DNA from: Verrucomicrobiota bacterium JB024
Lineage (GTDB): Bacteria; Verrucomicrobiota; Verrucomicrobiia; Opitutales; Cerasicoccaceae
DNA: 32,512 bases
Direction: 5' to 3'
NCBI GenBank assembly: GCA_030673825.1
Contig: JAUTCS010000008.1
Coordinates: forward strand, 1 to 32,512
Shown here: positions 24,110 through 32,106 of the stretch, piece by piece
How the letters are laid out: each line of letters opens with the position of its first letter
How positions within the stretch are numbered: position 1 is the first letter of the stretch
Position numbers and translations under genes: made by a program
The notes under the pieces: model-generated
Told to the model about the DNA's origin: nothing
What the model saw: only the letters and a program-made list of their open reading frames with translations
Database searches by the model: none

Positions 24110-24652
24110 ATGAAAATTCTTCTTGTTATACTGATTTTTATCCTTTCATCCGGTGCTAGCCATGCAGCCCTCTCAATCGTGGTAAATGTCAATACAAAGA
24201 CTCTAAGCATTCAGGAACAAGATTCCGGATCGGCGGCGCACGTATATTATGTCAATCCTCCACTCGGAGAGGTGTCGCAAGTCTTTTGGTTGTACGGTGG
24301 CACTTCGGGTAACCAGCAGATTGTAGACGTTCAAGATGGAATTGAACAAACGACAAACAGCGCGAAATTTAGAGTCTACTCTGATGGCAGCTTGTCTTTG
24401 CTCACGTATTCCCAGGATTCTTCTCTGGCCCAAATCAATGGTACCGGGGCAGAGATCAGCTATGCGTCACTGAGTGCCCCTTATCAGAGTATCTTGGAGG
24501 GTTCAAGTGGCCTTACTCTTTCTCTTGATCAGGGAAGCGGCTATTCTTCAGTATTGATGACGGTTGTCCCTGAGCCATCATACTATGTAGCCTGTATAGG
24601 TGCTTTGACAACAGTCAGTGCGGTATTTGTGCGCTACCGGAATCGTCGTTAG
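24110..24652 (+). CDS. PEP-CTERM secreted protein of unknown function
   Basis: A 180-aa exported protein. A signal peptide covers residues 1-19 (KILLVILIFILSSGASHA, then cleavage before ALSIVV). The C-terminus has the exosortase sorting signal: VPEPSYY at about 153-159, a hydrophobic helix (VACIGALTTVSAVFV) and a basic end RYRNRR. The mature part is Ser/Gly/Gln-rich and beta-like. Family knowledge says such tails are processed by exosortase (EpsH/XrtA), often alongside exopolysaccharide genes. No exosortase is in this window. The gene is clearly AT-richer than its neighbours and uses more A/T-ending codons, which may mark recent acquisition or relaxed selection. A strong hairpin follows. Confidence 0.82.
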   Translation: MKILLVILIFILSSGASHAALSIVVNVNTKTLSIQEQDSGSAAHVYYVNPPLGEVSQVFWLYGGTSGNQQIVDVQDGIEQTTNSAKFRVYSDGSLSLLTYSQDSSLAQINGTGAEISYASLSAPYQSILEGSSGLTLSLDQGSGYSSVLMTVVPEPSYYVACIGALTTVSAVFVRYRNRR

Positions 24653-26698: not shown

Positions 26699-27889
26699 TC
26701 AGGACGATGGAGAAGCGACCTTGCGTTTCTTCCGCCGCCAAATCACCGCTCCCAGCCCCAACAGCCCACCGACCAGGGCAAGCTCACCCGGCTCGGGGAC
26801 GGAGGAGGGGTCGATCACGCGCATGGCATGACTGAAATTCTGGTAAAACCAGTTGTCGTCGGTGAAGGGCAGGATTTCGACGCCGGGGGGCGGCAGTTCG
26901 CCGTCGAGGTCAAAGATGGCGGGTGTGTTGTCGTGACTGCTGATCACGAGCGGCACCTCCGAGGCGGTACCGTCGTCGAGCGTGCCGTAGGTGCCGAGCC
27001 AGATGACGACGTGGGTGATGTTGTCGGGCTGGTTGGGCTCGCCGGTGATGAAAAGCAGGTCGCCGGGCCGGAATAACTCAATCAGCGCGGCGAGCGAGTT
27101 GGGCGCGTTGATGGCGCCGCTGGCGTAGTTGGGGCCGTTGAGGAAGCCCGGCGTGATGAGCGTGCCGTCAGCCGCGATGATCGGGTTCGCCGTGAGCGAG
27201 CCGACGACCTCCTCGCCGAGGGTGCCGATGGCGGTGTCCATCTGGATGCCCAGCGCGACATTGTAGATGTAGGAGGCGAAATTACTGCAATCGATCCCAG
27301 CCGTGCCCTGGCCGTACTCGGTCTGCCACGGGTTGGAAATCTGCTGGCCGGAGGTTGTCTCAAGGTTGGCCTGGTCACTGACCTGGTTCCAGTCCCAGTA
27401 GTTGGGTGCGTTGGGGGCGGAGGAAAAGCCGTTGGCGTACGGGTTCCAGTCCGGGTTGTGGTGATGCTGGTAGGGGGTGCCGATCAGGCCCTTGGCCACG
27501 CTGAGCAGGCGCTGCTGCTGGTAGGTGGTCGTGTTCACGCCCGAGGGCGCGCCGGGGATGGCCCCGCCGTTGACCACGTGGCGGGTATCGTTGCCCAGCG
27601 TGTTGGCGGGGGTGTCCGTGCTGTAAAGCTGCGGCACGGTGACGCCCCAGTCGTGCCCGATCCCGTCGTTCCAGGTCGGGTCCTCGTAGTTGTACCAGTT
27701 GGAGGGACCGGGATTGGAATATGCGTTGACGGTGTCGATGCGGCCCGGGATGTCCGTCGTCCAGGTGGCGATGTCTGGATCGAGCGTGATCGCGTAGGGG
27801 GAGTCGTAGGTGTCGCCCCGGGCTGGAGAGTAGAGAAGGGCGGAGATCAGTAAAAGGATGACAGTGGCGTGGCGCATACTAGATGCCAT
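26699..27889 (-). CDS. PEP-CTERM NlpC/P60-type cysteine peptidase
   Basis: A 396-aa exported protein. A signal peptide is visible (VILLLISALLYSPARG). The mature region contains LSVAKGLIGTPY, then AGIDCSNFASYIYNVALG with the probable catalytic Cys, FRPGDLLFI, and ITHVVIWLG with the probable catalytic His. This is the order seen in NlpC/P60 (CHAP-like) peptidases, which cleave peptidoglycan stem peptides or related amides. The C-terminus is a sorting tail: SSVPEPGELALVGGLLGLGA, then IWRRKKRK. The combination implies an enzyme held at or released from the cell surface by exosortase. ATG 27889 was taken; ATG 27877 is also possible. It is convergent with thrS. Confidence 0.82.
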   Translation of the reverse strand: MASSMRHATVILLLISALLYSPARGDTYDSPYAITLDPDIATWTTDIPGRIDTVNAYSNPGPSNWYNYEDPTWNDGIGHDWGVTVPQLYSTDTPANTLGNDTRHVVNGGAIPGAPSGVNTTTYQQQRLLSVAKGLIGTPYQHHHNPDWNPYANGFSSAPNAPNYWDWNQVSDQANLETTSGQQISNPWQTEYGQGTAGIDCSNFASYIYNVALGIQMDTAIGTLGEEVVGSLTANPIIAADGTLITPGFLNGPNYASGAINAPNSLAALIELFRPGDLLFITGEPNQPDNITHVVIWLGTYGTLDDGTASEVPLVISSHDNTPAIFDLDGELPPPGVEILPFTDDNWFYQNFSHAMRVIDPSSVPEPGELALVGGLLGLGAVIWRRKKRKVASPSS

Positions 27890-27970
27890 AAGCAGCACTT
27901 AACGTGCCGTCAAGAAGCTCTTGCGTGGGTGGACTTGACAGCGCAGCACTTTTGACTTCCGTGTCGGGGC

Positions 27971-29519: not shown

Positions 29520-30662
29520 ATGCAGGGATTTGTGGGCAAGCCGCCGATACACGGTGAAACGCTCGACTCGCTCACGGCGGCGCTGGCCGAGCGGGGCGAG
29601 AAGCCCTTCCGCGCGCGCCAGATTCTTGAATGGCTGTATAAAAAACGCGCCGCCGGTCCGCAGGAAATGACCAACCTGTCCAAGCCCCTGCGCGCCTGGC
29701 TGGAGGAGACGTACGATTTCGCCCCGACCTCGCGCCTCGGCGCGAAGACCTCCTCGGACGTGACGGACAAGTTCCTCCTGCGCCTGCGGGACCTCTCGCT
29801 CATCGAGACGGTCATCATCCGCGCCCCGCAGGAAGGGGTGGGGCAGAACAGCTCCCGCAAGACCGTCTGCATCTCCACCCAGGTCGGTTGCGCCTACGGG
29901 TGCAAGTTCTGCGCCTCGGGCTTGGCCGGTTGGAAGCGCGACCTCTCCACCGGCGAGATCGTCCACCAGTTGATCCAGGTCTGCCATCAGGAGGACCCGA
30001 CCACGCCCCGCGCCAGCGACGAGCTGGCCTCCTTTGACAACATCGTGGTCATGGGCATGGGCGAGCCATTGGCCAATTACGACAACCTCCTGCGTGCCCT
30101 CACCATCGTCAACGCCGACTGGGGTCTGGGGCTCGGCGCGCGGCGCATCACCGTCTCGACCAGCGGACTGGCCCCGCAGATCGTTCGTTTGGCGGACGAG
30201 CCGCTCGGGCTGCGCCTGGCCATCAGCCTGCACGGAGCTACCGACGAGGTGCGTCAGCAGATCATGCCGGTCAACCGCAAGTACCCGCTGGACACGCTCC
30301 TTCCGGCGGCGCAAGCCTTCGCCGACAAGCATGGGCGGATGATCACGCTGGAGTTTATCCTTATTCGCGAGGTCAACGACACCCTCGACCAGGCCCGCGC
30401 CCTGGCGAAAATCGCCCGCGACCTGCACGCCCACGTCAACCTCATCCCGTACAACACGGTGGAGGGCTTGCCCTGGGTGCGCCCGGAAGTCCCCCGTCAG
30501 GACGCCTTCGCCAACATCCTGCGCCAGGCGCGGGTATCGGTCACCATCCGCCGCGAAAAGGGCCACGATATCAACGCCGCCTGCGGCCAGCTCCGCCTCC
30601 AGACCGAACGAGCCGAGGGTACCATCGAGCCCGTTCCGGCGAAGGCGGGCCGGACTGGCTGA
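29520..30662 (+). CDS. rlmN: 23S rRNA (adenine-C2)-methyltransferase RlmN
   Basis: Radical SAM enzyme methylating A2503 of 23S rRNA and A37 of some tRNAs (380 aa). Seen in order: the N-terminal helical accessory domain with KPFRARQILEWLYKK (28-42); the cluster motif C124-x3-C128-x2-C131 in CAYGCKFCASG; MGMGEPLANYDNLL; STSGLAPQI; and AISLHGATDEVRQQIMPVNR. The catalytic C-terminal Cys at about 355 is in GHDINAACGQLR. The start ATG at 29520 has GGCGGG directly before it. It is divergent from the Nif11 gene with a 204-nt gap. Confidence 0.96.
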   Translation: MQGFVGKPPIHGETLDSLTAALAERGEKPFRARQILEWLYKKRAAGPQEMTNLSKPLRAWLEETYDFAPTSRLGAKTSSDVTDKFLLRLRDLSLIETVIIRAPQEGVGQNSSRKTVCISTQVGCAYGCKFCASGLAGWKRDLSTGEIVHQLIQVCHQEDPTTPRASDELASFDNIVVMGMGEPLANYDNLLRALTIVNADWGLGLGARRITVSTSGLAPQIVRLADEPLGLRLAISLHGATDEVRQQIMPVNRKYPLDTLLPAAQAFADKHGRMITLEFILIREVNDTLDQARALAKIARDLHAHVNLIPYNTVEGLPWVRPEVPRQDAFANILRQARVSVTIRREKGHDINAACGQLRLQTERAEGTIEPVPAKAGRTG

Positions 30663-30720: not shown

Positions 30721-30742
30721 CGAATGCCGCCCGGGGCATTCG
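30721..30742 (+). terminator. Candidate rlmN terminator
   Basis: CGAATGCC (30721-30728) and GGCATTCG (30735-30742) form an 8-bp perfect stem with a 6-nt loop, 58 nt after the rlmN stop. It is followed by TTCGCTTGAC, not a T-run, so intrinsic termination would be weak. A TTGACA six nt past the hairpin (30748-30753) could serve as the -35 of a nusA promoter, but no good -10 follows at 17 nt. Confidence 0.45.
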
Positions 30743-30791
30743 TTCGCTTGACAAGGGCTGCCGCGGCTGGCAGGTTCCTTGTTTTCCAACC

Positions 30792-30838
30792 ATCCTATAC
30801 CTCAGGATAGTGGGTCGCATGTACCCGCTATTTTTTTT
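30792..30838 (+). promoter_or_regulatory. Terminator-like leader directly before nusA (possible attenuator)
   Basis: The arms ATAGTGGGT (30807-30815) and ACCCGCTAT (30823-30831) make a 9-bp stem (one G-T pair) with a 7-nt loop, running straight into eight T's (30831-30838). This is a textbook intrinsic terminator on the coding strand, ending 14 nt before the nusA ATG. A second small stem, ATCCT/AGGAT (30792-30808), shares two bases of the left arm and could compete with it. Such an arrangement suggests leader-controlled expression of nusA-infB. Confidence 0.65.
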
Positions 30839-30852
30839 CTAACAACATATCG

Positions 30853-32106
30853 ATGAGTAACGAAATCCTGTCTGTTCTCGAGTACATGGAGAAGGAGAAG
30901 GGGATCAGCCGAGAGGACATGATCGCCACCATCGCGGCTGCCATCAAAAGTGCCGCTCAGAAAGGCGTCAATGCCGGCGCCGAGCTCGATGTGCAGATCG
31001 ATCCGCGCACCGGCGCTCTCAAGGCGTGGACCCTGCTCCGGGTGGTTGACTCGTTCAGCGATCCCTCCTCCGAAATCCCCCTCGACAAGGCTCACCTGTA
31101 TGACAAGGACGCCAAGGTAGGCGATACCGTCCGCAAGGACATCGACCCGGCCTTCCTCGGCCGCATCGCCGCCCAGACGGCCCGCCAGGCCATCATGCAG
31201 CGCGTCCGCCAGTTCGAGAAAGAACGCATTTACGACGACTACAAGGACCTCGTGGGCGACATCGTCACGGGTATCGTCCGCCGCCGCGAACGCGGCGACC
31301 TCATCGTCGACCTCGGCAAGGCCGAAGCCGTCCTGCCCCCGCGCGAACGCGTTCCGGGCGAGGACTACGCCCCCGGCGAGCGCATTCGCTGCCTCCTGCT
31401 GGCCATCGAGAGCACCCCGCGCGGGCCCGAGCTCGTCCTCAGCCGCGCCAGCATCAAGTTTGTCCGCCGCCTCTTCGAACTGGAGGTGACGGAAATCGCA
31501 GACGGTACCGTGTCGCTTGAGGGCATGGCCCGCGAGCCCGGCTACCGCACGAAGATCTGCGTCCACAGCAACGATCCGAAGGTGGACCCCGTGGGCGCCT
31601 GCGTCGGTGCCCGTGGCGCCCGCGTCAAGAGTATCGTCCGCGAGCTCGGTGGCGAAAAGATCGACATCATCCGCTATTTCCCCGATCCGCAGCAGATGCT
31701 GGAGGAGGCCATCAAGCCGGCCGTCCCGAAGAACCTGCACATCGACCCGATCGCCAAGCGCATTTACTTTGAAGTCAGCGAGGACGACCTCGCGGTGGCC
31801 ATCGGCCGCCGTGGGCAGAATGCCAAGCTCACCTCCCGCCTGATGGGCTGGCGCCTCGACATCGGCAAGGAAAAGCGCGAAGCCGCCACCCTTGAGGAGC
31901 GTGCCGAACGCGCCGGTCTCAACCTCGCCCAATCCCTGGGTATTGATGAGCCCCTGGCCGAAAAGTTGGTCGCCATGGGCATTAACTCCGTCGAGGTGAT
32001 CGCCGCTGGTGTCACCGCTGACGACCTTGTCGAGTCCGGCGACTTTACGCCGGAGCAAGCCGCTGGCATCATCGCCAAAGTTAACGAACTGCAATCCCAG
32101 GCCTGA
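30853..32106 (+). CDS. nusA: Transcription termination/antitermination factor NusA
   Basis: RNA-polymerase-binding factor that promotes pausing and modulates termination and antitermination (417 aa). The N-terminal polymerase-binding domain is at about 1-125, the S1 domain at about 135-200 ([20 protein letters not shown]), KH1 at about 230-280 ([18 protein letters not shown]) and KH2 at about 300-345 ([16 protein letters not shown]). A short C-terminal helix-hairpin-type extension follows ([20 protein letters not shown]). It is shorter than E. coli NusA (495 aa) because it has only part of the acidic repeat region. There is no Shine-Dalgarno sequence; the start is 14 nt past the leader hairpin T-run. 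infB follows 34 nt downstream. No rimP gene precedes it, unlike the common rimP-nusA-infB order. Confidence 0.96.

Follow-up and report, generated by a model that had tools for sequence, protein, structure and literature searches.

Two genes could be served by the intrinsic terminator that lies between rlmN and nusA in Verrucomicrobiota bacterium JB024, and its position raises the question of whether it ends the transcript of the first or controls the expression of the second, and, in the latter case, to what signal it would respond. We addressed this question for the window, by which we mean the whole stretch of 32,512 nucleotides analysed here, and for the corresponding regions of related genomes.

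A predicted promoter and an intrinsic terminator precede nusA

The initial annotation described a 9-bp stem followed by eight T's that ends 14 nt upstream of the nusA start codon at 30853, and this description is borne out by the window sequence (Table 1). The arms of the stem, ATAGTGGGT (30807–30815) and ACCCGCTAT (30823–30831), enclose the loop CGCATGT (30816–30822), and one of the nine pairs is a U·G wobble. Folding of the 73 nt from 30780 to 30852 gave −14.2 kcal/mol (z −2.36), and 4 of 200 shuffled sequences were at least as stable. The earlier description of the terminator as 'strong' has to be qualified, since the lower stem consists of A-U and G·U pairs and the core contains the U·G wobble.

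Upstream of the hairpin, a TTGACA box is followed, at the best-scoring placement with a 17-nt spacer, by a predicted −10-like box. The latter is weak in the window's genus: CAGGTT agrees with TATAAT only in the A at position 2 and the T at position 6. Among 90 Opitutales leaders, the pattern NAnnnT was present in 62, with the best −10 placement 23–48 nt from the stem core, while TTGAC[AT] was found 5′ of the hairpin in all 90 (TTGACA in 76, TTGACT in 14), as compared with 249 of 4500 shuffles. When the transcription start is placed 7 nt past the −10-like box, a leader transcript from this predicted promoter would begin upstream of the terminator and, if terminated in the T run, would measure ∼56 nt.

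Table 1. Coordinates of the features around the nusA leader of the window.
Feature	Position	Strand	Remarks
rlmN	29520–30662	+	Next gene upstream of nusA, same strand
−35-like box TTGACA, predicted nusA promoter	30748–30753	+	Within the DNA shared with the two closest genomes
−10-like box CAGGTT, predicted, weak	30771–30776	+	Best-scoring placement
Predicted terminated leader RNA	30783–30838	+	∼56 nt; deduced from promoter and T-run positions
Weaker overlapping hairpin, antiterminator-like	30786–30813	+	−7.3 kcal/mol
Terminator stem-loop	30807–30831	+	9 pairs; extendable to 30804–30834 by weak pairs; conserved and covarying
U tract, 8 T	30831–30838	+	First T doubles as last stem base
nusA	30853–32106	+	TIGR01953 NusA, 360 bits; NusA_N and KH_5 domains
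infB, 5′ fragment, truncated at the contig end	32141–32512	+	IF2_N 3.2e-11; fragment without NCBIfam match

Some further features were noted. A GC-rich hairpin without a T run, CGAATGCC/GGCATTCG, lies 3′ of rlmN at 30721–30742, mostly outside the DNA block common to the two closest genomes. By eye, no clear Shine-Dalgarno sequence was seen 5′ of nusA in Opitutales, including positions 30839–30852 of the window, and many genomes of other classes have a GGAG-like stretch there. Elsewhere in the window, two ORFs, at 24110–24652 (+) and 26699–27898 (−), have C-terminal tails that resemble PEP-CTERM sorting signals.

The hairpin is conserved in Opitutales and shows compensatory changes

The relatives of the source genome are Opitutales, the named ones including Cerasicoccus, Coraliomargarita and Pelagicoccus, genera with cultured species that carry the hairpin. 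From 109 nusA loci, some of which represent the same genome in two collections, 93 distinct upstream sequences were obtained, with L045 left out because its contig begins inside nusA. A terminator hairpin was detected in 90 of the 93, and in these its stem, followed by the T tail, ended 15–43 nt 5′ of the ATG. By the same rule, hairpins were called in 214 of 1860 shuffles, where they could lie anywhere in 130 nt, and at 7 of 365 other ORFs (at most 50 nt). The three upstream sequences in which this rule found no hairpin were L017, L022 and L030, the first two belonging to one genus. By eye, L022 apparently has a different hairpin upstream of nusA, with its T run displaced by ∼9 nt. Furthermore, a terminator with a GnGGG arm was present 5′ of nusA in 18 of 18 additional genomes of the order (L116–L133).

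In an alignment of the 90 sequences, 95.6 % of the stem cells were paired and every slid register was worse. Conservation was concentrated in the stem and the T run. In line with the initial annotation, which had looked to compensatory changes in relatives, the stem is kept with double-sided changes in 38 cells, as compared with 12.1 in shuffles, and none of 500 shuffles reached 38. These changes are unevenly distributed: column pairs 41–64 and 48–56 hold 35 of the 38, and a double change occurred in only 4 of the 10 pairs, a number reached by 27 of 500 shuffles. The G at alignment columns 43, 45 and 47 and the C at column 61 were invariant in all 90 sequences, and at the column pair 44–60 the U·G wobble was the commonest state (59 of 90). 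Judging by this alignment, the stem is constrained in sequence as well as in pairing.

The terminator extends beyond the order, in a phylum without detectable RimP

To follow the terminator further, we read up to 180 nt 5′ of nusA in more distant genomes. We found the GnGGG form in 7 of 13 genomes that share the window's class but belong to another order (shuffles, 1 of 130) and in 37 of 53 genomes of other classes of the phylum (shuffles, 6 of 530), at distances of up to 111 nt; within these 180 nt it was missing from the remaining 16 of the 53. Three genomes of the same class (L141, L143 and L144) have a different terminator before nusA, GTGGAAACT...AGTTTCCACTT followed by a T run, which in L143 and L144 is succeeded on its 3′ side by a purine-rich, Shine-Dalgarno-like stretch.

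A covariance model was built from the 90 Opitutales sequences, so that the RNA model and the alignment share the same sequences, and 54 relatives were searched with it under stricter filters. Any match was found in 42, and directly 5′ of nusA in 39 of the 51 relatives with a NusA match, genomes that contributed a sequence to the model matching by construction. Nine relatives with a weak match or none were read individually, with four further genomes left out for lack of a NusA match or because of a truncated nusA. The GnGGG terminator was present in three of the nine (L234, L236 and L242), another terminator in L235, and none in L237–L241. The genomes of L237–L241 are 0.8–1.1 Mb in size, but L242, at 0.9 Mb, keeps the terminator. 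By eye, a TTGACA box is still present 5′ of nusA in L237–L241 (TTGACC in L239).

The initial annotation also stated that the usual rimP gene is missing, and this is what we observed at a much larger scale. RimP was found neither near nusA nor elsewhere in the source genome, and no RimP_N domain was detected in any of 54 relatives or in any of 144 phylum genomes that were at least 90 % complete. The C-terminal domain of RimP was likewise undetected in the same 144 genomes. Both RimP models matched in 10 of 14 control genomes; in this phylum, RimP may conceivably be too divergent for both models.

An overlapping stem is suggested for Opitutales

A weaker overlapping stem that could act as an antiterminator had also been proposed. 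Such a stem exists in the window: ATCCT (30792–30796) pairs with AGGAT (30804–30808), extended by C30790-G30810 and by CCA (30786–30788) with TGG (30811–30813). The leader of the window does not stand out, however, as 32 % of its shuffles reach the same stability with this arm, and single leaders are rarely significant (14 % at 0.05). In transcripts truncated past the 5′ arm, pairing of this arm with 4 or more upstream bases was observed for 88 of 90 leaders. The mean rank against dinucleotide shuffles was 0.275 over 38 clusters (z 4.8; 31 below 0.5), as compared with 0.477 for a reversed-leader control, and duplex energies of the transcribed leader gave a z of 3.4, with four controls between −0.35 and 0.45; these order-level values rest on 27–38 clusters that are not fully independent and on a leader window that was not chosen beforehand. 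With 26-nt windows the z dropped to 1.4–1.8. Moreover, fifteen further leaders of the order, used as a hold-out, gave a z of 1.7, or of −0.6 and 0.5, and one reversed control reached 2.0. Seven genomes of the same class gave a z of ∼1.9, equal to that of the reversed control (∼1.9), and genomes of other classes gave −0.3 to −1.0. The order-level signal (z 3.4–4.8) speaks for the proposal, but it lost strength as the windows were lengthened, and neither the hold-out nor the genomes outside the order reproduced it. Taken together, the pairing is suggestive of an overlapping stem for Opitutales only. We also considered a DNA operator palindrome at ATCCT/AGGAT, which seems unlikely given that the letters in the paired positions vary from group to group.

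Relation to known leaders of the operon

The rimP-leader is a terminator of the form GGGc...gCCC with a U tract before rimP-nusA-infB (Naville and Gautheret 2010, PMC2965389). It is reported to lie 4–130 nt before the first gene, mostly without a larger conserved element, and to show no visible antiterminator save for a tandem form in some Gammaproteobacteria; the authors did not decide between RimP and NusA as the protein that is sensed, but favoured NusA (PMC2965389). As far as this description goes, the element studied here resembles the rimP-leader in being an intrinsic terminator ahead of the operon's first gene, with infB following nusA, and in its GGG...CCC stem, G-rich 5′ arm, C-rich 3′ arm and U tract. 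It differs in standing directly before nusA, RimP being undetected, so that rimP is not the first gene here; we treated the latter as a description of the operon and not as a definition of the RNA element. It also differs in its core, GnGGG...CCCnC with a common U·G wobble, and in the overlapping upstream stem that may exist here, whereas none was reported outside the tandem form (PMC2965389). The attenuator type is accordingly known, and the missing RimP is the instructive difference. In E. coli K-12, the same kind of hairpin, GGGCTTTAGGCCC followed by T, is found just before rimP.

The Rfam family RF01770 (rimP) likewise represents a leader of this operon, but it has no match over its gathering cut-off at this place; of 14 control genomes, 1 scored above that cut-off, and in the source genome the family gave four weak matches elsewhere and none at the nusA leader. 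No Rfam family was over threshold at the nusA leader, and in 12 relatives nothing was found at E up to 1. Among the literature matches listed, no title or beginning of an abstract concerned this leader in Verrucomicrobia; the species list of PMC2965389 may already include some of these genomes.

In B. subtilis, NusA is stated to control its own expression by stimulating termination in the leader (PMC12288461, citing Mondal 2016), for which a length of 180 nt is mentioned (PMC2965389). As far as these sources go, the two systems share a terminator in the 5′ leader of a nusA-carrying operon and a proposed negative feedback by NusA; the NusA dependence is experimental there and deduced here, and the leader of 180 nt contrasts with the ∼56 nt predicted here. 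Closer in size is the rimP-nusA-infB operon of S. agalactiae, where termination occurs 31 nt past the start and NusA feedback was proposed (PMC4448216). There, too, a very short leader ends at an intrinsic terminator, but RimP is the first gene and the leader is supported by RNA-seq, whereas here it is predicted.

NusA feedback is the likely function

We consider it likely that the hairpin serves as an attenuator in the nusA-infB leader and that NusA acts on it in a feedback loop. Transcription would probably start near 30783 from the promoter at 30748–30776, and RNA polymerase would meet the intrinsic terminator after ∼56 nt. In the cell, a fraction of the polymerases would stop at this site, freeing the short leader RNA, and the remainder would read into nusA-infB. 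Abundant NusA, which aids hairpin formation and prolongs pausing, would increase termination and limit its own synthesis, and basal read-through may come from the weaker hairpin that precedes the terminator and shares its 5′ arm. We infer NusA as the effector, in agreement with papers on B. subtilis, S. agalactiae and E. coli (PMC12288461, PMC4448216, PMC2965389). Distal interruptions of the U tract are mentioned for NusA-dependent terminators (PMC8060035), and the uninterrupted U tract found here counts somewhat against a strong NusA dependence. The same source links weak terminal A-U and G·U pairs to NusG, and assistance of the hairpin to NusA (PMC8060035).

The attenuator could instead respond to another product of the operon (IF2, for instance), to a ribosomal protein or an RNA-binding protein, or to growth-rate-dependent translation, or a fixed terminator could set a constant low level of nusA, which a terminator by itself would also yield. 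We regard these options as improbable, though not negligible. The conserved sequence sits in the stem itself, no binding protein was identified, and the overlapping stem could be a sensing part, all of which would suit these options. Against them stands the NusA feedback that has been published for the leader of this operon in B. subtilis and has been put forward for S. agalactiae and E. coli in the papers cited above. RimP is unlikely as the effector, as it was undetected in 144 of 144 genomes.

The poor conservation of the leader 5′ of the hairpin, as opposed to the stem and T run, argues against a stand-alone small RNA gene of ∼56 nt with nusA expressed mainly by other means, as do the place directly before nusA, which is kept through the phylum, and our by-eye reading of the relatives' upstream regions, in which no second promoter was seen to be kept between the terminator and nusA. 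We rate such a gene as very unlikely, even though the promoter box and the U-tailed terminator would frame a short RNA and the covariance model has one best match in the source genome, namely the nusA leader, with the next at E 2.5. Across the 54 relatives, 14 model matches lay away from nusA, all at E 4.9e-4 or worse; one of these, in G010, ranks above the match at nusA. A GnGGG 5′ arm occurred in 1 of 20 other T-tailed terminators of the loci, a small sample. The idea of a wider regulon was set aside after 13 of the 14 matches away from nusA had been read (G025:C1 was left out), as they resemble ordinary terminators or repeats. The repeat in G030 (three copies in L244, others in L245 and L253; at least 5 occurrences) reads GTTCTCCTTTT...GGAGAAC and then ACGGGTTTTCCTACCCGTTTATTTTTT; one copy precedes a small ORF that is presumably RelB-like.

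The hairpin belongs to nusA and not to rlmN alone

The nearest upstream neighbour of nusA in the window is rlmN, which has the same orientation and whose transcripts could also stop at the hairpin. Among 110 loci, however, with mostly 1.5–4 kb of upstream DNA and less in some, rlmN was located 5′ of nusA in only two, namely the window (gap 193 nt) and L031 (2975 nt). It was not found within 8–9 kb 5′ of nusA in G001 and G002, of the same genus and with NusA 95 % identical to that of the window, or in G004, of the same family, and the hairpin is kept in all three. In G003, a third genome of the genus, rlmN is ∼3 kb away from nusA. Within the 1.5 kb 5′ of the window's nusA, the DNA match of G001 and G002 is confined to 30738–30852 and excludes rlmN. 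Since this match starts just 5′ of the TTGACA box, the promoter box, leader and terminator have stayed together with nusA. That the hairpin is solely the terminator of rlmN, which in the window is its same-strand neighbour, is refuted by these relatives and hardly deserves further consideration. The proposal that it is a promoter-proximal leader terminator of nusA-infB, made in the initial annotation, is in turn strongly supported: its place before nusA, its pairing and the promoter box are conserved, independently of the upstream gene and with no detectable RimP.

Implications for the control of nusA

Within the NusA feedback that we favour, the nusA leader of Opitutales might be a two-state switch, in which an early hairpin hides the GUGGG/GCGGG arm and allows read-through, NusA tips the leader to the terminator, and control persisted without RimP. 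We put this forward as a tentative and rather doubtful possibility; if it is true, NusA, and not RimP, would be what this very widespread leader senses. The persistence of the leader ahead of nusA in a phylum without detectable RimP amounts to a natural experiment, one that favours NusA or its operon. At a predicted ∼56 nt, the leader would provide a compact test system for this control, and the relatives without the terminator natural comparisons.
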